Shown piece by piece: positions 49,904 to 64,000 of a stretch of 64,000 nucleotides of DNA. Origin of the DNA: Rothia dentocariosa ATCC 17931 (GTDB lineage: Bacteria; Actinomycetota; Actinomycetes; Actinomycetales; Micrococcaceae); assembly GCF_000164695.2 (NCBI RefSeq), contig NC_014643.1:1302001-1366000 (forward strand). Direction: 5' to 3'. Position numbers and translations under genes: made by a program. The stretch's first letter is position 1, and each line of letters opens with the position of its first letter. The notes below the pieces were generated by a model. It did not search any database. It saw only the letters and a program-made list of their open reading frames with translations, and was not told where the DNA came from.

Positions 49904-50785
49904 TTACGAACCGAACTGTCCCACGGACAGCTGCTGAACCTTGCCGGTGCACGCCTCAGAAGAAGCAGAGACCGTCGTCCAGTTGCCGTCACCGGGAACC
50001 TGAACTAAGAATCCGTGCGCCATCGTCGGTGAACAGTTCTTACCCAGCGGACCAGCGTTGACCGAGGTCACTGGGGCGTTTGTAGATTCACCTGTGTGCA
50101 GAAGCGTGCCGGTGGGGTTCGTCGAACCTGCCGCTGGGCGTGCTGGTGAGCCAATCTGACTGAAATTAGAATCCGCGTAGACAACCGTCGGGTTACCCTT
50201 GAGCACACAGGGCTCCTCAGAAACGTTCGTGAACGTCAGAATGAATTTCCGGGCTCCGGGTGTGCCCTTATCTTCGGAAACAGAAACCGAAAGATCGGTG
50301 ATCTGGCAGGCTGACGCTAGGAGTGAACCTGAAGAACCGGTTGCTGAACGCCCTGGCTGTTTAGCTTCTGGGCTGGACGATTCTTCAGTGCCGTTATCTC
50401 CATCGTTATTCGATGAAGAGCCATCCGCATCTTTGCTTTCCTCGCCGGATGAACTCTTTTTATCGTGAGAATCCTTAGAATTGGAGTCTTTTTTCTTAGC
50501 CCCATCCTCGGAATGTTCATCGTTTGAGTGAGAGTCGTTATTATCTGTGGGGTTATCCTCAGGGCTTTGAGAACTATCCCCGCCCGCGGTACTGATAGAA
50601 CCGGGGGACACAGAATGCGCCGGGTCGGAAGCACGGGTAATTTTACCCTGAGCAACGCTGGCGGATGCGCTCGGTGAAGCGTCAGTCTGCGCAGAATGAT
50701 CGGCATCGGAAACGCCGCAACCTGCCAGCGTAAGGGCGCAAAGAAGTGCGGTTGCGGAGTAGAGTATCTTAGCCGAACTCGTCAT
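49904..50785 (-). CDS. DUF4232-type lipoprotein
   Basis: 293 residues. Signal ending in lipobox LAGC (Cys about 23), then a long Ser/Asp/Glu/Lys-rich spacer to about residue 145, and a C-terminal beta-sandwich of the DUF4232 kind: CQITDLSVSVSEDKG, KFILTFTNVSEEPCVLKGNPTV and SACTGKVQQLS supply paired Cys. Found on actinobacterial cell surfaces; function unknown. Start ATG 50785 lies one base after the ferredoxin stop, so translation is coupled. The frame is open 12 codons further up, inside the ferredoxin gene. Confidence 0.82.
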   Translation of the reverse strand: MTSSAKILYSATALLCALTLAGCGVSDADHSAQTDASPSASASVAQGKITRASDPAHSVSPGSISTAGGDSSQSPEDNPTDNNDSHSNDEHSEDGAKKKDSNSKDSHDKKSSSGEESKDADGSSSNNDGDNGTEESSSPEAKQPGRSATGSSGSLLASACQITDLSVSVSEDKGTPGARKFILTFTNVSEEPCVLKGNPTVVYADSNFSQIGSPARPAAGSTNPTGTLLHTGESTNAPVTSVNAGPLGKNCSPTMAHGFLVQVPGDGNWTTVSASSEACTGKVQQLSVGQFGS

Positions 50786-50786
50786 A

Positions 50787-51107
50787 TTACATCGCCGCCT
50801 GCAATTGTATAGAGGCGCCATCCATGCCGGGTGCGTATTCCACCTGGCAGCAGAGGCGCGAGTATTCGTTAGCTACGTCGTCTACCATGTCGAGGAGATC
50901 CTCCTCAGCGTCGGTACGATCGCCTGAAGCCGCGTAGTGTTCTGGATCAATAAAGGTATGGCACGTGGCACAAGATGCGTTGCCACCGCATGTTGCGAGC
51001 ACGGGGAACCCGTTCGCTTGTACAGCTTCTAATAGAGTCTGGTGATCCTCCCATTCGATCTCTCGACTGTCACCGTCTTCTCCGGTTACATTGATCTTCA
51101 CGCTCAC
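50787..51107 (-). CDS. [2Fe-2S] ferredoxin, adrenodoxin type
   Basis: 106-residue electron carrier. Cluster ligands C-x5-C-x2-C are seen in ATCGGNASCATC, with the fourth Cys about 35 residues later in SRLCCQV. The acidic helix DAEEDLLDMVDDVANEYSRL is the adrenodoxin/putidaredoxin partner-binding segment. Partners are usually cytochromes P450 or, in ISC-type Fdx, cluster assembly; neither is adjacent. GAGGAGGAC lies upstream of the start. It is followed directly by the DUF4232 lipoprotein, an unexplained pairing. Confidence 0.93.
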   Translation of the reverse strand: MSVKINVTGEDGDSREIEWEDHQTLLEAVQANGFPVLATCGGNASCATCHTFIDPEHYAASGDRTDAEEDLLDMVDDVANEYSRLCCQVEYAPGMDGASIQLQAAM

Positions 51108-51324
51108 GCGCGTGTCCTCCTCACATTGTGTAGATGCACCTCTATTGTAAACTCAGAGCTTACCCCGTAAAACTTTGCGACGGGGGTATGACAGAGGTGT
51201 ACCCGCGAGAAGGGTACCAAGGTTAACCCTATGATGCAGTGGTGCCGTGCACAGCATATCCGTGACCCGTGCGCCCTAGGGAACGAGTCGAAAATGGTGA
51301 ATGAGAGTGCCTTTGTTCTGGAGG

Positions 51325-52509
51325 TTATTCCTCGAAATCTTCCTCTGTTTCCAGGGCATGCACGATACCGCGGCAGGTATCTTTGGGATTGGCGTATCGC
51401 AGATCCACACCAAAAATCTCGCGGATCTGACGGGCCGAATTTAGATGCCAACGTTGGCTGTCGGAGGGGGTCACAGATGTGGTAGCTTTCATACCCGGCG
51501 CCAATTTTTCGTGACGAATATCGTAGTGCTTGCCACCCATCGTAATCGTAAAACCGTGACTTTCCAGAAGATTCTTAAAAGCGTGAATATCGTGCGGAAT
51601 CTTAACGCCGCGCTGCGACTTGGTGCCGCGCATCCTGGGCTGCGATTCGAAGGGGTTGCGTGTTTTCACCACACCCTTGCGCACGCTGACAATCTTATGG
51701 TTGGTGTTTGAGAACTCTACCGAATAGCCGTGCAGGGAGTATACGGTACGGTTTGTACCCGGGATTGGGCGGCGATCATTCGCCTCTTCGAGAATGCGCT
51801 CCACAAGTTCTGCTGTGAGTCCCAGGGCGCTCAGCTGTTTTTCGGCATCAGGGGTGAGTTCGTAGTGTCCGCTGGGGGCGCTGAGCGTAGAGCCATCAAA
51901 AGGATGTACCGAGATAACCTCGGAGGTATTCGCGTTCAGAACGGCGGTGTACCCGAGGCGCCGGTTTGAATAATGCTGAACCTCACGTCCGAAACGGTTT
52001 TCCTGAGCGGATTCGTCGCGGCGTTCGCTGTCTTGGGCCGTAATGAGCTCAAGGACGAGTGCGTACCCCAGGTTGTTGCGCATCATATGATCGATGACAC
52101 CCGGCAGTACCGGGTAGATGCGGTCGCCCGGCGGAACATCGCCATAGAAATCATTCTCAATCTGTTCGGCAATGCGTTGGTTCTCGTGCGGAACCTCAAG
52201 CAGGGGAATAAGCTGCTGACCTGAGGGTTTAATCGTGGGCTTGACCGCCGCAGGCTTGGGGGCGTTGCGATAGGCGGTCACCAGCGCCTCGTTTTGGGCA
52301 ATAAATTCTGAGGCAAGAAGCGGCATGATGGTGAAGTAAAGCTCCGCAGCCTCCGGGGAGATTGTGCGCCGTGCATCCAGCAGGCTTTCACCCTCTGGGT
52401 TCTGTATAGTCCAGGTGCCCTCCTGCTCGGTGTATTCGTATCGCGCTAGGTGGGAGAGCTCCTGCAGGCGGGCATAAAGCTCGACGGGAATGTCTATTTT
52501 CTTGTTCAT
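51325..52509 (-). CDS. Unrecognised protein with two repeat modules and HicA-like C-terminus (cassette gene 3)
   Basis: 394 residues, soluble. Residues 1-65 resemble the N-terminus of the protein at 53176 (IPvELyarLqelshL and SLL patterns). Two modules of about 65-100 residues follow (about 105-207 and 216-280), each ending in a beta hairpin with the pattern tyr-Gly-Y-x-V...N-x-x-VISV (RRLGYTAVLNANTSEVISV; LHGYSVEFSNTNHKIVSV), reminiscent of DUF4258/BrnT toxin-like folds. The last 90 residues, with LLESHGFTITMGGKHYDIRH and QIREIFGVDLR, look like the HicA double-stranded RNA binding fold. These fold relations are inference. GGAGGAAAG precedes the ATG; 21 bases separate it from the gene at 52531. 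Confidence 0.75.
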   Translation of the reverse strand: MNKKIDIPVELYARLQELSHLARYEYTEQEGTWTIQNPEGESLLDARRTISPEAAELYFTIMPLLASEFIAQNEALVTAYRNAPKPAAVKPTIKPSGQQLIPLLEVPHENQRIAEQIENDFYGDVPPGDRIYPVLPGVIDHMMRNNLGYALVLELITAQDSERRDESAQENRFGREVQHYSNRRLGYTAVLNANTSEVISVHPFDGSTLSAPSGHYELTPDAEKQLSALGLTAELVERILEEANDRRPIPGTNRTVYSLHGYSVEFSNTNHKIVSVRKGVVKTRNPFESQPRMRGTKSQRGVKIPHDIHAFKNLLESHGFTITMGGKHYDIRHEKLAPGMKATTSVTPSDSQRWHLNSARQIREIFGVDLRYANPKDTCRGIVHALETEEDFEE

Positions 52510-52530
52510 AAGGTGCTTTCCTCCTAACCC

Positions 52531-53106
52531 CTATGAGACTGTGGCGTTTGATTCTAGAGAATTTTCCGGGGTATCTTCAGCACCGTTAGCGTCGGTATCT
52601 GTGGTGGATTGTCGAATACTCATGACGATGCGGTTATCGGGCGATATCGTAACCTGTATACCGCTTCCGTGATATTCGCGCGTCCAATCGAGGTTTACCC
52701 TTACCTTTTCGGGGGAGCTGATGGCGGAGACCATCGCATCGAAGGCTTCGCCGCCGTGGGTTTTAAGATAATTCTGCGCGCCGGAGGTGAAATCGCAGGC
52801 GGTGATATCGGGGACGCCAAGAAGCTCGCGAGCGGCTTCGGGGCTGTATTCTGTGCCGCTTCGTCCATCAAAATCATCAAACTCGTCAAGGGCGGTGATA
52901 ACGGTCATAGACGCGGTATTGACATCGACTCGGTAATCGTTGTGGCGGAACCGAATAATCCAACCGTTAATGCGTTCGGCGCGGCCCAGTGTGATAACTT
53001 CGCGGATAGTCACCAGATCGATATTGTCTTTTTTGAAGGTGTCCAACCGTCCCGGATCTACACGATAGTTGGCGGTGCGTTCGGCCTTGGTGATGGGATC
53101 ATTCAA
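52531..53106 (-). CDS. Unrecognised protein with two repeat modules (cassette gene 2)
   Basis: 191 residues, soluble. Two modules share the hairpin pattern of the preceding entry: about residues 18-78 (VTIREVITLGRAERINGW then NDYRVDVNTASMTVITAL) and 108-166 (MVSAISSPEKVRV then HGSGIQVTISPDNRIVMSI). Each has a helix, an ER/PE-containing linker and a two-strand end, like DUF4258-type domains. The last 25 residues are Ser/Thr/Asp-rich. It lies 69 bases after the gene at 53176 and 21 before the gene at 51325, so the three form an operon. No database family recognised. Confidence 0.72.
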   Translation of the reverse strand: MNDPITKAERTANYRVDPGRLDTFKKDNIDLVTIREVITLGRAERINGWIIRFRHNDYRVDVNTASMTVITALDEFDDFDGRSGTEYSPEAARELLGVPDITACDFTSGAQNYLKTHGGEAFDAMVSAISSPEKVRVNLDWTREYHGSGIQVTISPDNRIVMSIRQSTTDTDANGAEDTPENSLESNATVS

Positions 53107-53175
53107 AGAAGGCAGCGCGGTCTTCTGCGTGTGTCCGTATACCTGTGCGGGATGCTGCGCATCGGATGCTGAAGT

Positions 53176-53865
53176 CTATGAACCCGCTGGCTTTGGTGTT
53201 TGTGATGAAGCCGTCTCGGGCTGCGGGGTTGTATTTTCCGCTGAGGACTGTGCTGCTTGGTTCGTGCGCAGCTGTTGCAGGTATTCTTCAATGCGCGGAG
53301 GAGTATAGGTGAGTGTGCTCTTCTTCTTGAACATCGCTGGAGAAGGCATGCGGGCGATGCCGGGCGTGGGAACTTGCGGATGTTCATGGGAAGGTACCGG
53401 CTGGGCCTGCTCTAGGGGAGTGGGCACCGTAGGGACGGGTATGGGGCCAGTTTGCGTTGTATCTGCGCTATCATCACTCGCAGGTGCCTCCATCATGTCG
53501 GCGGGAGCATCCACCGCGGCGCTAATCGTGGTTTCGGGAACTAGCGGCAGAGAACCGGTGACAACCTCGTCGGCCTGAGATGCACTAACATCTTCGTGCT
53601 CTTGAGTCGAGAAAGAAACAATATCGTCAGCGTTTTCAATACGGTGTCGAAAATTCTTATACAGTATCTCGGATGCGGCGCTGAACAGCTTCTCGACGGA
53701 TGCAGATTCGGCGGGTGCACAAGGACACAGAAGCTCGGTCTGATCTTCGCTATAGACTGCCCAGTGGGCGCATCGGTGATTTGCCGGATAGTATGTAATA
53801 TCTTTTAGCTGAGCAATATCTATGAGAGAACCCACTAGGGATTGCGGTATTGTGAGCTGAACCAT
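53176..53865 (-). CDS. Unrecognised protein, first gene of three-gene cassette
   Basis: 229 residues. A globular N-terminal domain (about 1-90; IPQSLVGSLIDIAQLKDI, HWAVYSEDQTELLCPCAP) matches the N-terminal region of the protein at 51325 in spacing and key positions (IP-x-x-L...L, W, a LL turn). The CPC pair is unusual. The remainder is Pro/Ser/Thr/Glu-rich and probably disordered, with a Lys-rich patch (FKKKSTLTYTPPRIEEYL) near the end. No signal peptide or membrane helix. It heads the cassette, after a 470-base gap with a minus-strand TATAAT. Confidence 0.7.
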   Translation of the reverse strand: MVQLTIPQSLVGSLIDIAQLKDITYYPANHRCAHWAVYSEDQTELLCPCAPAESASVEKLFSAASEILYKNFRHRIENADDIVSFSTQEHEDVSASQADEVVTGSLPLVPETTISAAVDAPADMMEAPASDDSADTTQTGPIPVPTVPTPLEQAQPVPSHEHPQVPTPGIARMPSPAMFKKKSTLTYTPPRIEEYLQQLRTNQAAQSSAENTTPQPETASSQTPKPAGS

Positions 53866-54335
53866 GATGTTGACGCTCCTTCGCTGTTGAAATACTTTCC
53901 CTGGAAAATTGGGGTGTATCCAGATTACCGGTATTTTTGAAGCCTGTCTTGGGATGACGGTGTTTTTAATCCCCTAGCAGATAAAAGCGGTGCTAGAGCT
54001 TGTGGCACACCGGAAACTGAGGGGCAGACCAAAGTATTTACGCGATGCGTCTGGTTGCACTGATCGTATGGATAGCCGAAATTTCATAGGCTGGTTTTGT
54101 GTTGAGACCCCCGATAGTCACCGCTTCTGAAGGCATGGGTATAGTGCCTGAGGTGAAGCTGTTTGTAGATGTGAATGCCTGCATGTTGTGACTCAGAAGG
54201 ATCGGATCGTGGTTCTCTATACTCGTCAATTATACACTATTCAATAGTTGTTTTAGGGTATAGAAACGGCGAAATCCCCGGCGATTACTCGCCGAGGACT
54301 TTCAAACTGCCACGTCTGCAGGCTTTGATAGACAG
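53866..54335. other. Intergenic region upstream of the three-gene cassette
   Basis: A perfect TATAAT on the minus strand (about 54227-54232) is the best promoter element. An open minus-strand frame (54038-54229, 63 codons from TTG, or 48 from an internal ATG at 54184) has no ribosome binding site; I do not call it a gene. A hairpin TCC-CGGCGA/TCGCCG-GGA lies near 54273-54300. Confidence 0.4.
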
Positions 54336-54367
54336 CAAAAAAGCCCTTCCTTGACAGGAAAGGCTTC
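54336..54367 (-). terminator. Terminator of tRNA-Arg
   Basis: 10-bp stem AAGCCCTTCC (54341-54350) with GGAAAGGCTT (54357-54366, one mismatch), T-run on the minus strand at 54336-54341. Confidence 0.85.
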
Positions 54368-54372
54368 GTTCG

Positions 54373-54445
<73 letters not shown>

Positions 54446-54926
54446 ATGCTCCTCGCGACCGGGCTTATAACCACCCGTCGCAGCAACAAACAATACTATA
54501 CGGGCACCCTTGATAGCGCGCAAGTCGAAAAAGAGTGTTAGTTCTAACAAAAACCCTCAACTATTACTCACAAAGTTCCTAAAAACGGCATAAAAACCGC
54601 GTAATTTCAATGTTTTTGCGGGGTGGGAAAATTTTTCAAAAAATTTTGGAATTCGTGGGAACGCTCGGGATTATTCGGTGAAGCTATGCCGCATCCACAG
54701 GTAAACCAACTTAAGAACAAGAGTGCTGTAGGGGGTCGAATATAAAATACTCGACTCATCAGCTAAATGCGCTATTCTAGATGAACACGAGGATGTGGAA
54801 AATTCCACGGGCGTGTATTTAAGGAAGCTACACGCCCTCGTTAGTTTAAAACATCCTCACAACACACTGCCTGCCGTGCCAGTGAGGTGCCCGGCAATTC
54901 TCAAGACTCAAAGGGGAAATAGGTCA
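54446..54926. other. Intergenic region upstream of pckG
   Basis: Gene-free. It contains a perfect AT-rich palindrome AAAATTTTT-CA-AAAAATTTT at 54628-54647, about 280 bases before pckG, which could be a bent-DNA or regulator site. The pckG frame is open back to 54795 but without start signals. Confidence 0.45.
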
Positions 54927-56777
54927 ATGACTGACATCTCAACCGGTACTCTTTCTGCAGAACTTGAAAAGAGCCTGCAGAACGCTCCCACAACCCACCC
55001 CGAGCTCTTAGCCTGGGTGCGCGATGTTGCAGCACTCACCGAGCCCGACCATATCTACTGGGTTGATGGTTCCGAAGAGGAATACAACCGACTCGCCCAA
55101 GAACTGGTCGATGCAGGTACCTTCGTACGGCTAAGCGATCATGAGTTCCCCAACTCGTATGCAGCGTTCTCTGACCCCGACGACGTGGCACGTGTGGAAG
55201 AGCGCACCTTTATCTGCTCACAGACCGAAGAAGGTGCTGGCCCCACCAACAACTGGCGTGACCCCGTGGAGATGAAGCAGACTCTCACCGGCCTTTTCAA
55301 AGGTTCGATGCGCGGGCGCACCATGTACATCATTCCCTTCGTCATGGGCTCTTTGAAAGCAAAGAACCCCAAGATGGCGGTCGAAATTACCGACTCCGCC
55401 TATGTGGTGTGCTCAATGCGCATTATGGCAACTATCGGCAAGGATGTGCTCGCGAAACTGGACGAAACCCAGGGCTTCTTCGTGAAGGCGCTTCACTCCG
55501 TAGGCGCCCCGCTTGAGCCCGGGCAGGCAGATGTGCCCTGGCCCTGCAACCCCGAGAAGTACATTGTGCAGTTCCCCGAGACCCGCGAAATCTGGTCCTT
55601 CGGGTCGGGCTATGGCGGCAACGCGCTGCTGGGCAAGAAATGCTATGCACTGCGTATCGCCTCGGTTATCGGTCATGATGAGGGCTGGATGGCTGAGCAC
55701 ATGCTCATCCTCAAGGTCACCAACCCTGAGGGCATTACCCGCTACATCTCCGCCGCATTCCCCTCTGCCTGCGGTAAAACCAACTTTGCGATGATGGATC
55801 CCACCATTGATGGGTGGAAGGCCGAAATGGTCGGCGACGATATCGCGTGGATCGAATTTGACGAGAACCACCAGGCTCGCGTCGTTAACCCCGAGGCGGG
55901 TCTTTTCGGCGTGGCGCCCGGCACCGGTTACTCCACTAACCCCAACGCCATGAAGGCAATCTCTAAGGGCAATACTATCTTCACCAACGTGGCGCTCACT
56001 GATGACGGCTCCGTATGGTGGGAAGGTAAGACCGACGAGGCACCCGCGCACCTGACCGACTGGACCGGCAAGGACTGGACTCCTGAATCGGGGCGTCCCG
56101 CAGCGCACCCCAACTCGCGCTTCTGCACCCCCGCATCCCAGGTGGATATGCTCGCTCCCGAGTACTACGATCCCGAGGGCGTGCCGCTGAGCGCCATCGT
56201 GCTGGGTGGTCGCCGCAAGACTACCGTGCCGTTGGTCTCCGAATCCGATAGCTGGGAACAAGGTGTCTTCCGTGCGGTCACCCTCTCCTCTGAGACCACA
56301 GCAGCTGCAAAGGGCGCCGTCGGCGTGGTTCGCCGCGATCCCATGGCAATGCTTCCCTTCATCGGGTACAACGCGGGCGACTACTTCCAGCACTGGATTG
56401 ACTTGGGTAAGAAGCACGGTGCTGAGAACATGCCGAAGGTCTACTACGTGAACTGGTTCCGCCGCACCCCCGACGGTGGCTTCGCATGGCCCGGCTTTGG
56501 TGAAAACTCCCGCGTGGTCAAGTGGATCTTCGACCGCCTCGACGGCAAGGGCGGCGGCACGCAGACTTTCCTGGGCACCGTACCCACGAAGGAAGATCTC
56601 GACCTAACCGGTCTGAGCATCAGCGATGAAGAACTTAACGCAGCACTCGCCGTTTCAAAGGATGAATGGGTGGCCGAGCTGCCCGGCATTGACGAATGGT
56701 TAGCGAAGTTCGGCGATAAGCTCCCCGCAGAGGTCAAAGCTGAGCGTGACGCCTTGGCAAAGTCTCTTGAAGACTAA
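54927..56777 (+). CDS. pckG: Phosphoenolpyruvate carboxykinase (GTP)
   Basis: Converts oxaloacetate and GTP to PEP, CO2 and GDP; gluconeogenic entry step. 616 residues from ATG 54927 (AAGGGGAAATAGG upstream), the normal length of the GTP class. The kinase loop is [13 protein letters not shown] (P-loop with the reactive Cys), the metal site lies in GDDIAWI, and [19 protein letters not shown] is the GTP-class signature near residue 510. Actinobacteria and animals use this class. Monocistronic, ending in a strong hairpin. Confidence 0.98.
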
Positions 56778-56801
56778 GGAACATTCGACAATATGACATC
56801 A

Positions 56802-56847
56802 CGGTGGGGTGGGATGCGCTGACAATGCGTATCCCACCCCACCGTTT
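56802..56847 (+). terminator. Terminator of pckG
   Basis: Perfect 14-bp stem CGGTGGGGTGGGAT (56802-56815) with 56831-56844, 15-base loop, then TTTG. Some 290 gene-free bases follow before nsrR. Confidence 0.8.
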
Positions 56848-57137
56848 GTGGAAGCCTGCTCTTACATTGTTGTAAAGCACATCCCACCGATCGGGTGTGC
56901 AGCGCGTACAGTATGATATGGCATACTCAGGCGTGTGGGATGGTGCACACTTTATGCAGAAAAGGTGTAAATATCCACCAATGCCTTAAAATATTGCTAT
57001 ACAGACTCCGCATTTTGTGTGCAGTAAAGCCATACCTAATTTTCGTGCGGGTGGTACGAAGACTAGAATTTTCCGGTAGAACGGACAAGCCCTATATTAT
57101 TTAGCCCTCAATAAACTGTTGAAAGGAGATACGAAGC

Positions 57138-57650
57138 ATGCGCCTGACGGCTTTTTCAGACGTATCACTACGTATTATGATGCTTCTTTCTTCCTTGCAG
57201 GAAGGGGAAAAACTCTCGACTCAGAGGATCTCGGAGGGAGTCGGAACCCCTTATAATCACGTCGCAAAATCTGTGGCGTTTCTCGTCAATCAAGGGTTGC
57301 TTGAATCTACCCGTGGGCGATCCGGTGGCGTCCTGCTGTCGGAGACGGGGCGCAAAGCGACCGTGGGGCAGGTACTTCGTAGTACCGAGGGTGATATTCC
57401 TATGATTGAATGCGAAGATGAAAATGGCAACTGTCCCCTAGATAGTTTTTGTCGTCTGCGAACGGTTTTAGCCCGCGCTCGTGAAGCTTTCTATGCTTCT
57501 GTTGATGATGTTGTTATCTCTGAACTTCCCGCCGGAGCGCGGCCTGCTGGGCCCGTTTTTGTGGAGCTGGGGTTGGGGCCGCTCGTGCACGAGCCTACGG
57601 AGCGAGAGCTGCCGCCCGTACCTCCCCGGCCTGCAGTAGCATCGCATTAA
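57138..57650 (+). CDS. nsrR: Rrf2-family nitric oxide sensor NsrR
   Basis: Iron-sulfur repressor of NO detoxification, 170 residues. N-terminal winged helix (MRLTAFSDVSLRIMMLLSSL, ISEGVGTPYNHVAKSV, GLLESTRGRSGGVLL) is Rrf2; cluster ligands are Cys92, Cys99 and Cys105 in ECEDENGNCPLDSFC, the NsrR arrangement. GAAAGGAGA lies upstream of the ATG. Its C-terminus adds a Pro-rich tail of about 35 residues not typical of NsrR. hmp, its standard target, is the next gene on the same strand. Confidence 0.92.
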   Translation: MRLTAFSDVSLRIMMLLSSLQEGEKLSTQRISEGVGTPYNHVAKSVAFLVNQGLLESTRGRSGGVLLSETGRKATVGQVLRSTEGDIPMIECEDENGNCPLDSFCRLRTVLARAREAFYASVDDVVISELPAGARPAGPVFVELGLGPLVHEPTERELPPVPPRPAVASH

Positions 57651-57955
57651 AGATTAAAGTCTCAGGGTGACAAATGTTTGTTGCTCAGAGAGTAGATGCA
57701 CTATGCGAGAGAAAGTAGCGGATAAACCGTGAAAGCGTGGAGTTTTCTCTTTTGATAGCTTGCCTCTGTCAAGGGTTGGCACCGTAAGAATATACATTGA
57801 CCGTATGTGCCCGGTGTCCGTTTAAGAAGGCAGGTATGTGACCTGAGTCTGCCTCCGTAAGAGGGGCAGGTGACTGGTGTGCCAGTTTATACGTTGTAGA
57901 ACAACACTGCTGTTCACCCTGCGTGAAACCTAGCGTCAGAGTACAAAATTATTTT

Positions 57956-57989
57956 TATTCACATCACGGTATATCGCGGTGAAAATAAT
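57956..57989. promoter_or_regulatory. 34-bp imperfect inverted repeat upstream of hmp
   Basis: TTATT ends and 12 of 17 symmetric positions around a TAT centre; about 165 bases before the hmp start. It could be an operator for NsrR or another regulator, but it does not match a known NsrR consensus well. Confidence 0.35.
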
Positions 57990-58030
57990 CACATAAACAC
58001 TACTGTACAAAACACACTATCTGATACAAA

Positions 58031-58047
58031 GGCATTTTAAATATTTC
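58031..58047. promoter_or_regulatory. Candidate NsrR-like site upstream of hmp
   Basis: GGCATTTTAAATATTTC has the ATTTTAAAT core seen in Gram-positive NsrR operators; 107 bases before the hmp ATG. Similarity is to the core only. The rest of the 503-base gap between nsrR and hmp is AT-rich with no gene. Confidence 0.35.
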
Positions 58048-58153
58048 ACGCCGCAAGAAAACACCATCTTAGCGAACAATAAAAGGTGATAACCTAAAAA
58101 GGTTTACAAACAAAATATCACTAAAATCTAAGAAAGAAAGGCGCACATCCCTC

Positions 58154-59323
58154 ATGCTTTCCGAAAAATCACGCCCGGTTATCGAGGCAACCCTGCCGAT
58201 TATTGCAGAGCGTATTGGGCACATTACACCAGACTTCTACGAGCGTATGTTCGCCGCCCGGCCCGACCTGATGGATGGGCTCTTCTCCCGGTCGTCTCAG
58301 CTTGAAGGCACCCAGCCGAAAGCGCTTGCTGGGTCCATCGCGGTCTTCGCCTCCTACATTATGGAGCATCCCGATTCCTACCCTGACGAGGTGCTTTCCC
58401 GTGTGGCGCATAAGCACGCGTCCTTAGGGCTTCAAGAGAATGAATACCCGACCGTCTACAAGTATCTTTTTGAGGCGATTGCCGCAGACCTGGGCGAAGC
58501 AGCAACTGAAGAGGTCGTGGATGCCTGGAGTGAAGTGTACTGGCTCATGGCGAACGCCCTGATCAAGATCGAAAAGGGACTCTATGCATCCCAGGCAAAT
58601 AATGTTACCCACGCGCCCTTCAAAGTTGTTGATCGTCAAGAAACCGGCGATAACGTGGTCGTGCTGACCTTTGAACCTGCCGATGACACCCCCATGACTG
58701 AGGCGAAAGCAGGCCAGTACATTTCCATTATTACGAAGGCACGTGATGGTCTGCGCCAGCCCCGCCAATACACCCTGCTTCCGTCCGATAAAAACCAGCG
58801 CCGTATCGGCGTGAAGCTCGATCCGAACGGCGAAATGACTTCGATCATTCACGGGCTCAAGATTGGCGATGTCGTCGAGATTTCCAACCCTTATGGTGAC
58901 CTCACCTTGGAGGGCTTCGGCTCTGCGGATGCACCCCTCTACCTTTTCTCAGCGGGTATCGGCGTAACCCCTATGATTAGCTTCCTCAATGAGCTGATTG
59001 AGTCCGGTTCTCAACGTCAGGTAACCGTGGTTCACGCTGACCGTCGCCTTGATACATGGCCGCTGCGTGAGGAAATGACCGAGCTGATCGAAAAACTTCC
59101 TCACGGCAAGCTCATCTCGTTCATAGAAGACGAAGAAACTGGCGATTACCGTGGCCGTGTGGACATCGCAAAGCTGGGCGTACCTGCAGAGGCGAACGTA
59201 TACCTGTGCGGTCCGCTGCCGTTCATGAAGGGCATGCGGTCCGCTCTCGTAGATGCAGGTGTACCGGCGCAGAATATCAATTATGAGATCTTTGGACCGG
59301 ACCAGTGGATGCTGCGCTCGTAA
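58154..59323 (+). CDS. hmp: Flavohemoprotein (nitric oxide dioxygenase)
   Basis: Oxidises NO to nitrate with O2 and NAD(P)H. 389 residues in the usual order: globin domain (1-150) with proximal His88 in VAHKHASLGL; FAD-binding domain with RQYTLLPSDKN (about 203-215); NAD-binding domain with FSAGIGVTPMISFLNEL and LCGPLPFMKGM. AAAGAAAGG lies a short distance before the ATG. Located downstream of nsrR with a long regulatory gap; single gene ending at a terminator. Its heme demand fits the heme uptake capacity of this organism. Confidence 0.97.
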   Translation: MLSEKSRPVIEATLPIIAERIGHITPDFYERMFAARPDLMDGLFSRSSQLEGTQPKALAGSIAVFASYIMEHPDSYPDEVLSRVAHKHASLGLQENEYPTVYKYLFEAIAADLGEAATEEVVDAWSEVYWLMANALIKIEKGLYASQANNVTHAPFKVVDRQETGDNVVVLTFEPADDTPMTEAKAGQYISIITKARDGLRQPRQYTLLPSDKNQRRIGVKLDPNGEMTSIIHGLKIGDVVEISNPYGDLTLEGFGSADAPLYLFSAGIGVTPMISFLNELIESGSQRQVTVVHADRRLDTWPLREEMTELIEKLPHGKLISFIEDEETGDYRGRVDIAKLGVPAEANVYLCGPLPFMKGMRSALVDAGVPAQNINYEIFGPDQWMLRS

Positions 59324-59408
59324 AGGCTACTTTGGAGAACATACTGAAGCCGCTTGGGAGACCCGTCTGACGCTGCACCGAATATCCCATATTCAGGAGG
59401 AGAGATAA

Positions 59409-59447
59409 ATAATATTGGGGGCGTTGAGCCCCCAATATTTTTATTTA
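59409..59447 (+). terminator. Terminator of hmp
   Basis: Stem AATATTGGGGGC (59411-59422) with GCCCCCAATATT (59428-59439), 5-base loop, then TTTTATTT. Strong. Confidence 0.92.
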
Positions 59448-59565
59448 AGTATTTCTAAATGTCCAAAGGTAAACTAAAGAAGCCCCCGTCGCGGCTACAC
59501 CCCACGGAACACTTCTGACCTAATCAGCCGTGGAGGGTCGTAGTTCCGAAAGGGGGTGAGACGGA

Positions 59566-59673
59566 ATGCCGAAAAAAGGTAAAAGCAAAATCGCTTTGGC
59601 GGCTGCGCGAATTATCAAAGCCCTCGCGCAACTCGTCAAAGCGATTGCTGACCTAATCGACGTCATCGGCTAA
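59566..59673 (+). CDS. 35-residue cationic amphipathic peptide with masked ribosome binding site
   Basis: ATG-to-TAA frame of 35 codons. The product starts MPKKGKSK and continues as a long helix in which Lys, Arg, Gln and Asp recur every three or four residues (R15, K18, Q22, K25, D29, D32), leaving one strongly hydrophobic face. It resembles phenol-soluble modulins, leaderless bacteriocins or small membrane-active toxins; no signal sequence. AAGGGGGTGAG, close to the perfect Shine-Dalgarno, lies 5 bases upstream. In the leader, CCCCC (59483-59487) can pair with the GGGGG of that site, closing a nested hairpin (CTAC/GTAG, CCACGG/CCGTGG). It ends at a bidirectional hairpin. Function is inferred only. 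Confidence 0.65.
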   Translation: MPKKGKSKIALAAARIIKALAQLVKAIADLIDVIG

Positions 59674-59689
59674 GCCGGTGTGACGTTTC

Positions 59690-59728
59690 AGCGGGTTCCC
59701 CTAGCTTCGCGGTTTAGGGGTGCCCGCT
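59690..59728. terminator. Bidirectional terminator-like hairpin after the peptide gene
   Basis: AGCGGG/CCCGCT and CCCCTA/TAGGGG form a 12-bp stem with a 2-base internal loop (59690-59703 with 59715-59728). Symmetric enough to stop transcripts from both sides, as expected between convergent units. Confidence 0.65.
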
Positions 59729-59739
59729 ATCTAACATTA

Positions 59740-59880
59740 TACCTAAATATCAGTGGGTATATCCCTGTTAAAACTACAAAGCCCTCGCGCTGGCGTTCAC
59801 GCCCGGCACGCCTACCGGGGCGAAGCGGCTCAAATGCGCTCGTGCCAGGGCTGTAATGCGATTGTATAACCCAGCACCAA
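59740..59880 (-). ncRNA. Candidate structured (antisense-like) RNA opposite the peptide gene
   Basis: No ORF. Strongly foldable: AGCCCT (59780-59785) pairs with AGGGCT (about 59846-59851), inside which CGCCCGG pairs with CCGGGGCG (about 59797-59822). It contains CAAAGCCCTCGCGC (59777-59790), identical to 59616-59629 inside the peptide gene; a minus-strand transcript would therefore carry a 14-nt exact complement to the peptide mRNA. A TATACA-like -10 box lies on the minus strand near 59860. Transcription is unproven. Confidence 0.4.
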
Positions 59881-59895
59881 TAATGCTTAGAAGAA

Positions 59896-59927
59896 GGGCG
59901 GATACCGATAATAATCGGCATCCGCCC
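59896..59927 (-). terminator. Terminator of manB
   Basis: GGGCGGATaCCGA (59896-59908) with TCGGcATCCGCCC (59915-59927), 6-base loop, followed on the minus strand by TTCTTCT. Confidence 0.85.
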
Positions 59928-59947
59928 AAAATAAGGAGTTCAAAGAA

Positions 59948-61351
59948 CTACTGGCGCACCAGAGCCAGAATCTCGTCGCGCACGCGCTCCATTGTGGGAG
60001 TATCCGGTGCTTCAAGGTTCAGACGCAGGAACGGCTCAGTATTGGAAGGCCGCAGATTTGCCCACCAGCCTTCTTCGGTGTTGGTGAAGGTGGTACCGTC
60101 TGAGTCTTCGACCTCTACAGGCGCGCCAGTGTAGTGCGCGCGCACACGGTCCACAGCGGCTGCCTTGTCCTCAATCTCGGAGTTGATCTCACCGGATGCG
60201 ACATAGGGGGAGTAGCTGGCGCTGATCTCGGAGAGCGCCTGGTTACCGCCGCCGAGGGCCGCGAGCACGTGCATCGCGGCGAGCATGCCGGTGTCTGCGT
60301 TGAAGAAGTCCTTGAAATAGTAGTGCGCGGAGTGCTCACCGCCGAAAATACCGGATTCTTCAGCCATGACTGCCTTGATGAAGGAGTGCCCCACACGGGT
60401 TTTCACGGCGCGTCCACCGAGCTTTTCGACGAGCTCGGGTACGGCCTTGGACGTGATGAGGTTATAGATAATAACCGGCTGCTCATTGCCTTCCGCCTTA
60501 GCGCGCGCGATTTCACGTTCTGCCACGAGCGCGGTGATGGCGGAGGGGGTGACCGCGTCACCCTTCTCATCTATCACGAAGCAACGGTCGGCATCGCCGT
60601 CAAAGGCAAGGCCGATGTCTGCGCCGTGCTCAACAACCGCTTTCTGCAGATCAACAAGGTTGGCGGGTTCAAGCGGGTTAGCCGGGTGGTTCGGGAAGGT
60701 GCCGTCAAGCTCAAAGTAAAGGGGCACAATCTCAAGTGGAAGCGCGGGCAGAAGAGCATCTCCCAAGACGGCGGGTGTGGTCTTACCGCCCATGCCGTTA
60801 CCTGCATCCACAACAACCTTGAGGGGGCGAATATTGGAGAGGTCTACGAGCTTACGCAAGTACTCGGCGTAGGCTTTGAGAACGTCCTTTTCGGTGACGA
60901 CGCCGGGATTCTCAACGGTAGGAATAGAGCCTTCGTCAAGGTACTTCTGGGCAAGATCACGAATATCGAAAAGACCGGTTTCGGAGGATACAGGAACCGC
61001 CCCGGCCTTAGCCATTTTCATGCCATTGTATTCGGCGGGGTTGTGGCTTGCGGTGAAAGTAACGCCTGCCGCATTCTCAATACCGCATGCAAAGTAGAGC
61101 ACATCGGTTGAAATGAGACCGATTTTTTGGACGTTTGCGCCGCGTGCGGTGGCACCTTCAGCGAATGCATCCATGAATTCGGGGGAGGAGGGGCGCATGT
61201 CACCGCCCACCAAAACGGTCTGACCAGCCAGACCGAGCACATCAACAAAAGCGGCGCCGGTTGCACGCACAGTTTCGTGGGTAATAGTTTCGCCGACGAT
61301 ACCGCGAACGTCGTACGCCTTAAATGAGTCTTTGAGGTTAATAGTAGTCAC
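59948..61351 (-). CDS. manB: Phosphomannomutase/phosphoglucomutase
   Basis: Interconverts hexose 6- and 1-phosphates, here most likely mannose, feeding GDP-mannose. 467 residues, four-domain alpha-D-phosphohexomutase. Motifs in order: phosphoserine loop TASHNPAEYNG (about 100), metal loop DGDADRCF (about 250), sugar loop GGEHSAHYYF (about 340) and phosphate loop SNTEPFLRLN (about 440). The GEHSAH form fits bifunctional PMM/PGM enzymes. Divergent from manA, 150 bases apart, an arrangement common in Actinobacteria. Confidence 0.94.
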   Translation of the reverse strand: MTTINLKDSFKAYDVRGIVGETITHETVRATGAAFVDVLGLAGQTVLVGGDMRPSSPEFMDAFAEGATARGANVQKIGLISTDVLYFACGIENAAGVTFTASHNPAEYNGMKMAKAGAVPVSSETGLFDIRDLAQKYLDEGSIPTVENPGVVTEKDVLKAYAEYLRKLVDLSNIRPLKVVVDAGNGMGGKTTPAVLGDALLPALPLEIVPLYFELDGTFPNHPANPLEPANLVDLQKAVVEHGADIGLAFDGDADRCFVIDEKGDAVTPSAITALVAEREIARAKAEGNEQPVIIYNLITSKAVPELVEKLGGRAVKTRVGHSFIKAVMAEESGIFGGEHSAHYYFKDFFNADTGMLAAMHVLAALGGGNQALSEISASYSPYVASGEINSEIEDKAAAVDRVRAHYTGAPVEVEDSDGTTFTNTEEGWWANLRPSNTEPFLRLNLEAPDTPTMERVRDEILALVRQ

Positions 61352-61501
61352 TCGTTTATTTTAGCGGGTATATCTTTGAAATGTACCTCTATAATTGGTG
61401 GGAGTATCCAGAGAATTCCCTGAATTTTATGGGTTTTATATCACGTATGCCGTAGTTTTGGTGATGTTGCGTGTAAAAGTTCCTAGAAAGGCCAAGGCAA
61501 C

Positions 61502-62683
61502 ATGGGCGAAATTTTTCCGTTGAAGAATAAGATTCAGAATTATGCGTGGGGTTCGCACGAAGTTCTGGGTCGCATGCGCGGTGTGCCCGTACCCACAGAA
61601 AAGCCGGAGGCTGAGGTTTGGGTGGGGGCGCATCCTGCGGCTCCGTCTGAGGCCACAGTTGATGGGTCTGTGTCGCCGTTGAACGAGCTGGTGGCGGCGC
61701 ATCCGGACCGTTTTTTGCGCCCTGACCGCGCGAGCGATTGGTTCCCGTTCCTGTTTAAGATTTTGGCTATTGATGCTCCGCTGTCGATTCAGGTTCACCC
61801 TACACCGCAGCAGGCCCTCGCCGGGTTCGAGGATGAGCAGGCGCGCGGGATTCCGGCTGATGCGCCGCATCGTAACTATAAAGACCGGTACTCTAAACCT
61901 GAGAACGTAATTGCCTTAACCCCCATGAAGGTACTGACGGGCGTGCGTCCGCAAGGTGAGCTGCGGGAGCTGGCTGAAGCTTTTGGCGCCGATTGGCTGA
62001 GTTCTCGTGTGCAGCTAAGCCCGAAGCAATTGCTGACCGAGATTATTCGTCTTCCGCAGGATGCTGCTGACCGCGCCATAGCGAGTTTGGTAACTGCGGC
62101 GCAAAAGCTGATGACACAGGACGGTGTCTCTGCAACGGTGTCGGATGCCGCTGACCTGGTGAACCTGGTGGCGCAGAAGTATCCGGGTGATAAGGGGCTA
62201 CTCGTCGCGTTTGTGATGAACCTGATGAACCTTGCGCCGGGGGACTCTGCTTTTACCCCGGATGGTCAGGTGCATGCATATGTTTCTGGTACGGCGATTG
62301 AGCTCATGAATCCCTCGGATAATGTGCTGCGCGCAGGTCTTACCCCAAAGCATATTGATGCGGAAGAACTTATTAAGGTGCTCGGTGAGCGTCAGGATGC
62401 GCCGGTAGTACAGCGCCCGGCGGCGAACGGATCGGGCGTGGAACAATACGCCATGTGGGATGAACGCATGAGCGTGCAGCATATACGGGTGCTCGCTGGC
62501 AAACCAGTTGAATACACCTTTGAAGGCACTTCTGCCGCGCTGGTGGTGGACGGTTCGGTCACGATTTCTACGGGTGAGCAGAACATAACGCTGCGCGGCA
62601 CCGAGTCGGTCCTGCACGCTGGGGATGCCACCTCCGCCACCATCACGGGGGAGGGCGAACTGTATATCGCCCGGTATGTGTAG
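61502..62683 (+). CDS. manA: Mannose-6-phosphate isomerase, type I
   Basis: Zinc enzyme converting fructose 6-phosphate to mannose 6-phosphate. 393 residues; opening FPLKNKIQNYAWGSHEVLG, zinc-site segment IQVHPTPQQALAGF, KPENVIALTPM and the catalytic PDGQVHAYVSGTAIELMNPSDNVLRAGLTPKHID region (key residues His, Glu, Arg) are type I signatures. GAAAGG lies upstream of the ATG. With the divergent manB it supplies mannose 1-phosphate for mannosyl lipids and the GT87-like enzyme. Confidence 0.96.
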   Translation: MGEIFPLKNKIQNYAWGSHEVLGRMRGVPVPTEKPEAEVWVGAHPAAPSEATVDGSVSPLNELVAAHPDRFLRPDRASDWFPFLFKILAIDAPLSIQVHPTPQQALAGFEDEQARGIPADAPHRNYKDRYSKPENVIALTPMKVLTGVRPQGELRELAEAFGADWLSSRVQLSPKQLLTEIIRLPQDAADRAIASLVTAAQKLMTQDGVSATVSDAADLVNLVAQKYPGDKGLLVAFVMNLMNLAPGDSAFTPDGQVHAYVSGTAIELMNPSDNVLRAGLTPKHIDAEELIKVLGERQDAPVVQRPAANGSGVEQYAMWDERMSVQHIRVLAGKPVEYTFEGTSAALVVDGSVTISTGEQNITLRGTESVLHAGDATSATITGEGELYIARYV

Positions 62684-62765
62684 CGTGTTTATTGTGTGGG
62701 GAATATTGAGAGCAAGTTTGTGAGTATTTACTATAAGACTTGTATCTTAAGAAAGGAGTAGCGCT

Positions 62766-63056
62766 ATGCGGCCTTCGTTAGCTTTTGAAACACATCGGCG
62801 TGCTATACGCGAGATTGTGAAAAAATATCCTACAGTAAATCCCCGTGTTTTTGGCTCTGTTCTACATGGTACCGATCATGAGGAGAGCGATCTTGATGTC
62901 CTCGTGGATGCTCTGCCTGGAGCTACTCTTCTAGATCTCGGAGATCTGGAAGCAGATTTGGTGCAGGCACTTGGAACCCGAGTAGAAGTTCTCACTCCCC
63001 AAGATTTGCCCCATAAATTCCGTGAACGCGTACTTGCTGAGGCTCAGCCGGTGTAA
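62766..63056 (+). CDS. mntA: MntA-type nucleotidyltransferase antitoxin
   Basis: Minimal nucleotidyltransferase, 96 residues, with the Pol-beta signature FGSVLHGTDHEESDLDVLVD (GSx10DxD type, residues about 30-48). In characterised pairs MntA neutralises HepT by adding AMP units to a Tyr near its active site. AAAGGAG lies before the ATG; the stop overlaps the hepT start (TAATG). The two genes are AT-richer than manA, consistent with horizontal spread. Confidence 0.9.
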   Translation: MRPSLAFETHRRAIREIVKKYPTVNPRVFGSVLHGTDHEESDLDVLVDALPGATLLDLGDLEADLVQALGTRVEVLTPQDLPHKFRERVLAEAQPV

Positions 63057-63391
63057 TGATGAGCAAAAATCGTCTTTCTGATTACATAGAGCACATACAA
63101 CAGGCAGCCGGTGATGCATATTCTTTTACGGAAAATATGACTCATCAAGAGTTTTTAAAAGATAAAAAGACTCAACAGGCAGTTATCCTAAATCTTATTA
63201 TTATCGGCGAAGCTGCAACAAAAATCATGGATAATTACGAAGACTATACTCGTACGACTCCTGAGGTTCCGTGGCGCAGCATGCGAAATATGAGGAACCG
63301 GTTGGCTCATGGGTACTTTGATATAAACCTCGATATCGTGTGGGATACTGTAAAAAATTGGTTACCTTCTCTGCTGGAACAAGAGTTTTAG
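63056..63391 (+). CDS. hepT: HepT-type HEPN toxin
   Basis: 111 residues, HEPN (formerly DUF86) RNase. The catalytic Rx4-6HxY motif is RNRLAHGY near residue 83-90, intact, so the toxin should be active and its Tyr available for AMPylation by MntA. Earlier helices include QAVILNLIIIGEAATKI, typical of the family. Overlaps mntA by one base; an alternative ATG lies 3 bases later. Terminator at 63413. Confidence 0.92.
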   Translation: MMSKNRLSDYIEHIQQAAGDAYSFTENMTHQEFLKDKKTQQAVILNLIIIGEAATKIMDNYEDYTRTTPEVPWRSMRNMRNRLAHGYFDINLDIVWDTVKNWLPSLLEQEF

Positions 63392-63412
63392 CTTCATGGA
63401 ACTAAAATATTA

Positions 63413-63440
63413 AGAATATAATTTTTAGATATATTCTTTT
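63413..63440 (+). terminator. Terminator of mntA-hepT
   Basis: AGAATATA (63413-63420) with TATATTCT (63430-63437), 9-base loop, then TTT. Weak AT stem but proper T-run. Confidence 0.65.
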
Positions 63441-63561
63441 GTGTCTCGGTGCACCTTCAGATGTAACATGTAAATATTTCAGAGATGCCGGAATGGAATA
63501 TCCGGCAAAACCCTGACATAAATTACCCGACCACAACCTCCGACGACGAAAGACAGCACCG

Positions 63562-64000
63562 ATGGCACGTAAAATCTTCCTCTTAGCCGGTGCGGCGGGT
63601 GCCGGTAAGAGCACCTGGATCGCCGCGCATCCCGAACTTGCAGACCTGACGCATTCTTGGGATGCCGAGCGCCGCAAATGCGGATACATCACCTACACGC
63701 TCGATAATCAACCCGCATTAGCCCTATCACAAAACACCAGCGCCGAATCGAAGGCTATCCGCCGGGTGAACGACTGCGTGGAAGAAAATATGCGGCACGG
63801 CAACACCGTATTTATCGACAATATGAACGTGCTGCTGCGCAACATGAAAACCTTCCTCGAATTTGCGCGCAAATACTGCTACACCGCATACCTGGTCGAT
63901 TTTCAGGGCGAACTCACCCTCGACGAGCTGTATGCGCGCAACAGAACCCGCGAATACACCAAGCGCGTACCCGAAGAGGTTATCGAGACCGCCTACAACA
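63562..64000 (+). CDS. P-loop kinase/AAA-type ATPase (truncated by window end)
   Basis: 146 residues visible. MARKIFLLAGAAGAGKSTWI carries the Walker A loop GAAGAGKST (residues 10-18); IDNMNVLLR may hold the Walker B-like Asp, and a charged lid region (ARNRTREYTKRVPEEVIE) follows, as in polynucleotide-kinase-like or zeta-toxin-like small kinases. It may be a PNK-type nucleic-acid kinase; the missing C-terminus prevents a decision. Only a weak ribosome binding site (GAAAGA) precedes the ATG. It lies 120 bases after the toxin-antitoxin terminator. Confidence 0.75.
   Translation, partial: MARKIFLLAGAAGAGKSTWIAAHPELADLTHSWDAERRKCGYITYTLDNQPALALSQNTSAESKAIRRVNDCVEENMRHGNTVFIDNMNVLLRNMKTFLEFARKYCYTAYLVDFQGELTLDELYARNRTREYTKRVPEEVIETAYN

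Follow-up and report, generated by a model that had tools for sequence, protein, structure and literature searches.

A short unannotated locus of Rothia dentocariosa ATCC 17931, lying in a 64,000-nucleotide stretch of contig NC_014643.1 (positions 1,302,001 to 1,366,000; hereafter the window), is best read after comparison with its relatives as a stand-alone type I toxin-antitoxin-like locus, a reading to which we would assign a probability of about 0.5. The locus belongs to a family whose peptide-encoding open reading frame (ORF) is under coding constraint and carries a selected hairpin. A terminator and a 5' segment complementary to the Shine-Dalgarno (SD) sequence are likely further parts of the element, and we infer from the sequences an antisense RNA and a toxic peptide directed against the cell that produces it.

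The peptide locus of R. dentocariosa

The genome that contains the window is a single contig of 2,506,025 bases. The ORF sits between an upstream gene that we take, from its sequence, to be flavohaemoprotein-like and a neighbour on the other side that is presumably phosphomannomutase-like. As the original prediction stated, it is a 35-codon frame preceded by an SD sequence: the ORF at 59566-59673 encodes the 35 residues MPKKGKSKIALAAARIIKALAQLVKAIADLIDVIG, and the SD, AAAGGGGGTGA, lies at 59549-59559. The features of the locus are as follows.

59411..59439, no strand assigned: hairpin flanked on either strand by T-rich sequence, terminator of the flavohaemoprotein-like gene (terminator scan, flagged on both strands)
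59470..59475, plus strand: TAAACT, candidate -10 box for transcription of the peptide gene, with no established -35 (sequence reading)
59482..59558, plus strand: leader hairpin, 5' GCCCCC (anti-SD) paired with GGGGG of the SD (MFE fold)
59549..59559, plus strand: SD sequence; R. aeria has GGGAG for GGGGG (sequence)
59566..59673, plus strand: peptide ORF, 35 residues, cationic and amphipathic, stop codon included (ORF reading, homologues, coding analysis)
59589..59646, plus strand: hairpin II in the ORF, outer stem 59590-59598 with 59637-59645 (covariation, recoding test)
59611..59639, minus strand: second promoter-like match, inside the ORF, TTGACG-17-GATAAT, 10/12 (promoter scan)
59656..59687, plus strand: hairpin III, which spans the stop codon (MFE folds, in the window element and in several relatives)
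59691..59727, no strand assigned: terminator-like hairpin IV (sequence and fold; counterparts in most relatives)
59736..59741, minus strand: candidate -10 box TATAAT for a convergent antisense RNA directed toward the ORF (promoter scoring)

The hairpin at 59411..59439 could also end a minus-strand transcript. Upon folding, the segment 59461-59690 was far more stable than its shuffled versions (z -6.24, 0/200 as good). In the predicted fold, the C-run at 59483-59487 pairs with the SD within a nested hairpin, as had been proposed for a leader CCCCC, and the hairpin expected after the stop codon is present at 59691-59727.

The locus was then compared with that of R. aeria. Leader, ORF, and terminator together were identical at 272 of 275 positions and the ORF alone at 108 of 108; the neighbouring upstream gene was 90.4% identical, and the region downstream of the terminator matched at 147 of 161 positions. 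Purifying selection and recent exchange would both explain the absence of differences in the ORF. As for the possibility that relatives keep the DNA with the ORF broken, the comparison favoured the ORF, which is identical in R. aeria and shows coding-like substitution in distant relatives. Some copies elsewhere are truncated or frameshifted.

Distribution of the element

An R. aeria copy identical at 100% to the peptide was recovered by tblastn, along with a 47% relative on an R. nasimurium plasmid and, in the R. dentocariosa genome itself, a second copy that is truncated. Further Rothia members were found with peptide profiles, after which two covariance models, R1 for the ORF hairpin and R2 for the leader, added members that the profiles had missed. 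The element is present in 15 of the 35 Rothia genomes (G000, G001 [R. aeria, AP017895.1], G002, G003, G007, G010, G011, G013, G016, G018, G020, G024, G026, G027, and G028), and a sixteenth, G030, has the leader only. The copy of G027 has a divergent leader and no clear terminator.

A search across 396 genomes of the order gave 13 that matched at E <= 0.01, namely 4 from Rothia, 8 from a second family (f3), and 1 further genome, G648. The f3 family, represented by genera g45 and g97, which we guess to be Actinomyces and Schaalia, has 13 loci in 8 genomes, and by eye these follow the plan seen in Rothia; the leader of one of them, A561b, is altered. The recurring plan consists of a promoter, a C-rich 5' end complementary to the SD, a peptide of 33-49 residues, a long hairpin in the ORF, and a terminator hairpin. 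Among 395 genomes of the family to which Rothia belongs, no convincing member was found outside Rothia, three of the weak matches (L032, L045, and L044) being judged chance upon inspection. To judge from its homologues, the 35-codon ORF is genuine and is a member of an unannotated family.

The window peptide and two other peptides had no match in a plasmid collection, and the only plasmid record found was the one R. nasimurium plasmid, with two copies of the element. This 42.9-kb plasmid (NZ_CP056082.1, L019) contains long stretches that are doubled about 21.45 kb apart in a dimer-like fashion, and the element, unannotated, occurs in both halves. A phage origin was ruled out, as phages and viral contigs gave no match.

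The peptide and its coding constraint

The peptides of the family are cationic, mostly amphipathic, helix-like, and without a signal sequence; their 33-49 residues fall below 60, as in type I toxins. Two types were distinguished, the first being KIAREARKW..PIAKLLRAIADL in Rothia and KVTARKVSDILNSIARLVRAV in f3, and the second KQKAQIWRGILKVLAPVIWALADLL in the Rothia genomes G024 and G018 and KQKAQIAVAVVTTLPQLIWAIAFLL in f3. The DNA of the second type is nearly alike across the two families (AAGCAGAAGGCCCAGATCTGG in both G024 and G443), and this closeness between Rothia and f3 suggests exchange.

Of 28 pairs of members, 22 allowed computation of dN/dS, and the ratio was below 1 in all 22 (0.18-0.79), with the caveat that distances are partly saturated and that the hairpin restrains silent sites as well. 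Nearly all close pairs showed an excess of third-position changes. The net charge of 11 peptides ranged from +2 to +6, and the hydrophobic moment was significant at p <= 0.013 in 10 of the 11, the remaining one (G010c) giving 0.052. The best 19-residue Kyte-Doolittle mean was 0.73-2.11 in 7 peptides and 1.64 in the window peptide, whose N-terminus is charged and which has no Trp. A transmembrane helix is typical of most type I toxins, according to excerpts of PMC8309996.

At the curated cut-off, no Pfam or NCBIfam match was obtained for the window and Rothia peptides or for 10 further peptides, among which the best score was to DUF2200 (E 0.0069, below the cut-off). The six Rothia peptides scanned against PHROGs and PADLOC gave no good match; a PADLOC hit to AbiJ in one of six members (E 0.0059) was taken as a composition effect, as were hits to Abi_C (E 0.015) and to designed coiled coils in the PDB.

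A hairpin within the ORF

The outer stem of the ORF hairpin was 93.7% paired in 14 Rothia sequences, and both partners had changed in 6 of its 9 pairs, a result reached by none of 500 shuffles. The covariation set was then made up of 29 sequences (28 distinct) from Rothia and f3. In this set, 83.9% of 392 cells were paired (0/500 shuffles), and sliding the register by one base reduced pairing to 44.9% at best. Cells with double changes numbered 50 compared with 17.9 in shuffles (0/500), and the covariation score was 0.322 compared with 0.151 (0/500). Two measures were less telling, namely how many pairs contain double changes (9 vs 6.7; 19/500) and how many pair types occur (173/500).

Synonymous recodings were less stable than the native hairpin in 29/29 sequences (mean z -3.61). 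The window hairpin gave a z of -4.75 (0/400), and the weakest values were those of G027 (z -0.76, 82/400) and G026 (z -1.66). When the whole ORF was recoded, the effect was smaller, with a z of -3.42 for the window, -0.93 to -2.29 for six relatives besides the near-identical R. aeria, and +0.28 for G027. Since the native hairpin exceeds its synonymous recodings in stability, the structure is no by-product of the amino acid sequence. Collectively, these data show that the hairpin inside the ORF is under selection as a structure. Template switching is another way in which inverted repeats can persist. At the gathering score, Rfam 15 gave only tRNAs in positions 50000-64000 of the window and in 17 loci.

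Leader and masking of the SD

Most leaders contain, 70-80 bases upstream of the SD, a C-rich stretch complementary to it; the duplex search chose another stretch in the window and R. aeria, where it lies nearer, and in G013. In 9 of 12 distinct Rothia leaders, inspection by eye showed a TANNNT box 5-7 nt upstream of the C-rich stretch, a spacing that would place the anti-SD at the very start of the mRNA. The window SD had a probability of being unpaired of 0.00 compared with 0.13 in shuffled sequences (p 0.086). Among 23 leaders, this probability was 0.10 or less in 9 and above 0.4 in several, and masking reached p <= 0.1 in 5 (Fisher p 0.026). The leader helix gave no covariation signal (245/500 shuffles), and the single change in the R. 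aeria SD weakens the pairing. Predicted SD masking is thus strong in the window locus and weakly significant across the family.

Terminator and opposite-strand promoter

Hairpin IV was not flagged by the terminator scan because it has no strong T-run. Past it, the minus strand of the window carries a perfect -10 box, TATAAT, with a poor -35 (GGGATA); the two make 9/12 consensus matches, with p 0.017 for the -10 alone and 0.127 for the -35 plus -10. R. aeria keeps the TATAAT, and the adjacent base 59735 differs.

Across the family, the best minus-strand promoter past the terminator scored a mean of 8.28/12, compared with 6.6 for the plus strand of the same bases and 6.4 for the next 70 bases. 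A score of at least 9/12 was reached by 10 of 25 members and by 0 of 25 in either control, in a test that was devised post hoc, after TATAAT-like boxes had been noticed on the minus strand, and that used members related to one another. For these counts, terminator ends were set by eye, G007, G026, G027, G003, and G030 were left out, and the near-copies Raer and G011 were dropped. Eight of the ten members at this score belong to f3 and two to Rothia (the window copy W and G016); the plasmid copies G020, G010a, and G010b score 7, like the controls. A promoter weight matrix gave p <= 0.1 in 16/25 members. Six of eight members of one f3 subfamily carry an invariant TGGACA-N17/18-CATAAT, with variants in A078 and A535b, and the spacer of A535a differs from those of four others at 12-14 of 18 bases with the hexamers unchanged. 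This constancy of the hexamers despite a changed spacer is the strongest individual argument for a putative functional antisense promoter.

The promoter-like match inside the ORF (59611-59639) had no equivalent in the five relatives scanned and is therefore probably no family feature. In lower-GC Rothia copies, T-rich sequence follows the ORF hairpin on the minus strand; a terminator was flagged there in G020, G016, G010b, and G013, and not in the window or G007.

The downstream region

The original prediction had placed an antisense-like RNA downstream of hairpin IV, in a region said to be foldable, free of ORFs, and marked by 14 bases identical to the peptide gene. The repeat, CAAAGCCCTCGCGC, is present in exactly two copies, at 59616 and 59777. 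A direct repeat of this length occurred in 0 of 2000 shuffles of 59461-59880; of the 152 segments obtained by tiling the window at 420 bases, 1 contained such a repeat. Its downstream copy is altered at 3 of 14 bases in R. aeria (59786, 59788, and 59789), where the ORF is unchanged at 108/108 positions; the repeat is thus genuine in the R. dentocariosa strain and not conserved, and as an antitoxin pairing site it was ruled out. The other two points did not hold: the minus strand of 59770-59870 folded with a z of only -1.56 (11/200 shuffles as good), and the region contains mechanical ORFs of 58 (plus strand) and 64 residues (minus strand). Among the 35 Rothia genomes, 59731-59896 had a strong match only in its own genome and in R. 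aeria, with four more matching over 19-27 bases. A conserved antisense gene in this downstream region was ruled out, as the region has no counterpart across the family. An imperfect hairpin occupies 59777-59856, between the element and the terminator of the next gene, and is about 91% common with R. aeria.

Genomic context and decayed copies

A parA gene lies within about 0.4-1.2 kb of the copies in G020, G010, and G701, and a repA gene is similarly placed in G013. One plasmid-like contig (G010:C93) contains three copies. Inspection of the neighbourhoods revealed no constant neighbour gene and hence no obvious immunity or export gene. The copies of G642 and G701 (L136 and L144) each lie next to a tRNA gene, alike in kind and encoded on the opposite strand, and the G027 copy (L068, 4761-9931) lies beside what we take, from their sequences, to be cas2-, cas1-, and 969-residue cas9-like genes.

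Copies truncated at the 5' side are W2, in the genome of the window itself, A561b, and those of G028, G011, G002, and G026, the last four at one common site. W2 (L002, reversed, 1421-1500) abuts an inverted repeat, GAGCAGGTGGTTTTTGG, part of which recurs about 240 bases further on. The copy of G003 is frameshifted, and G030 holds a leader-only relic (L100/L132) whose conserved leader and start continue in frame into an ABC-transporter-like ATPase gene; the leader may have been co-opted for control of this gene. Extra leader-and-start remnants near intact copies in G561 and G677 (L151 and L153) suggest small arrays of decayed copies.

Discussion

Several known systems resemble the element in part. 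In txpA/RatA and bsrG/SR4 of Bacillus subtilis, a convergent antisense RNA overlaps the 3' part of the toxin mRNA, as the antisense RNA predicted here would overlap the 3' part of the peptide mRNA. The txpA and bsrG toxins, unlike the Rothia/f3 peptide, have a transmembrane segment, and to our knowledge neither system has an ORF-embedded hairpin of such size. Phenol-soluble modulins and leaderless bacteriocins are short amphipathic helices made without a leader peptide. The Rothia/f3 peptide is like them in these respects; the element differs in its structured mRNA, in matching no family, and in that no partner gene for export or immunity was noticed beside it.

The original prediction had compared the locus to par/Fst. 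According to excerpts of PMC7472228, the par toxin mRNA holds its 5' end and SD in an intramolecular stem-loop, is opposed by a convergent antisense RNA, and occurs in plasmid and chromosomal copies; direct repeats are required, and the peptide is a transmembrane one with Trp and a charged C-terminus. The predicted SD masking and convergent antisense arrangement would be shared with par/Fst-Ldr, as is the presence of plasmid and chromosomal copies. In contrast, those members that have the candidate antisense promoter have it beyond the terminator, so that the RNAs would overlap over terminator and ORF, unlike the shared terminator and repeats only of par. The DRa/DRb repeats also lack an equivalent, as R. 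aeria does not keep the 14-base repeat intact and its downstream copy lies outside the region common to the family. The family peptides are amphipathic with a cationic N-terminus and lack the signature of transmembrane helix, Trp, and charged C-terminus; the window peptide has no hydrophobic transmembrane helix, Trp, charged C-terminus, or Pfam match. With no conserved direct repeats and no Pfam match, membership of par/Fst is not supported. Another likeness is to AapA/IsoA of Helicobacter pylori, from a different phylum and not known to be related in sequence, for which excerpts of PMC6733600 describe SD-sequestering leader hairpins, ORF-embedded structure, covarying stems, and an antisense RNA; covarying ORF-embedded hairpins and, as predicted here, SD-trapping are the shared traits. 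According to excerpts of a 2025 paper (PMC12390103), type I systems were known from Proteobacteria, Firmicutes, and Tenericutes only until the cyanobacterial case that it describes, and in the parts of the open-licence literature covered by our search neither this element nor any actinobacterial type I system was reported. The ncRNA-66 noted near hypothetical genes of Rothia and Actinomyces in section 18 of PMC7160235 could not, from that section, be equated with the element.

The wider claim of a type I toxin-antitoxin-like system is partly supported, in its predicted architecture of a masked SD and a convergent promoter past the terminator, and is shorn of the direct repeat and the downstream structured region. 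The family also resembles such systems in a peptide that looks membrane-active, in its plasmid and chromosomal copies, several of them near parA or repA, and in its numerous decayed copies. In the mechanism that we propose, transcription would start right at the C-rich stretch, and the first nucleotides of the mRNA would fold onto the SD, leaving the primary transcript translationally silent. From the opposite-strand promoter past the terminator, a convergent antisense RNA would be made whose sequence is complementary to the mRNA in its 3' part; this RNA may also be terminated, in lower-GC Rothia copies, by the ORF hairpin and the T-rich sequence that follows, which is A-rich Lys codons in reverse. 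A duplex of both RNAs would target the message for degradation, and the peptide would be freed when the antisense RNA is lost or scarce or when the 5' end of the mRNA is trimmed. It may then act on the membrane of its own cell and thereby serve maintenance of a plasmid or region, or growth arrest.

Three other explanations were weighed. The locus could encode a secreted peptide of the leaderless bacteriocin or phenol-soluble modulin kind, with mRNA structure controlling translation and opposite-strand promoters that are incidental or tuning. The cationic amphipathic peptides of 33-49 residues without a signal sequence fit this, and the three copies on G010:C93 resemble the arrangement of multi-peptide bacteriocins. 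However, no conserved transporter or immunity gene was noticed alongside, Pfam and NCBIfam gave no match at the curated cut-off, and such peptides are not known to have a selected ORF hairpin and an opposite-strand promoter, so that we consider this explanation unlikely. A dual-function RNA, of which staphylococcal RNAIII is an example, would regulate other mRNAs through its structure and yield the peptide as a second product. Such a role is very unlikely: the whole transcript is made of hairpins and its C-rich segments could reach other SDs, but the conserved pieces pair within the element, conservation of loops was not seen, and the peptide is constrained as a coding sequence.

The patchy distribution, the several copies per genome, and the truncated, frameshifted, and leader-only copies would also be expected of a small mobile or repetitive DNA element, a hairpin repeat whose ORF matters little. 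Copies within a genome have diverged, however, and a dN/dS below 1 in 22/22 computed pairs, the third-position excess, and the sharing of a site by related genomes, namely by W and R. aeria and by G024a and G018, all weigh against it, which makes this explanation quite unlikely.

Under the type I toxin-antitoxin-like reading, a more far-reaching proposal can be put forward only tentatively: the element would be the first type I toxin-antitoxin family of Actinobacteria, common to Rothia and f3, with an mRNA whose 5' end is its own anti-SD and an ORF hairpin in triple use, encoding an amphipathic peptide, folding the toxin mRNA, and ending the antitoxin RNA made from the other strand. If true, such a family would widen the known range of type I systems, would give oral actinobacteria simple reporters of peptide toxins under RNA control, and would supply covariance and profile models for searching other genomes. 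Even without toxicity, a coding sequence that is jointly selected for a peptide and a long hairpin, and recoded base by base in relatives, is unusual.
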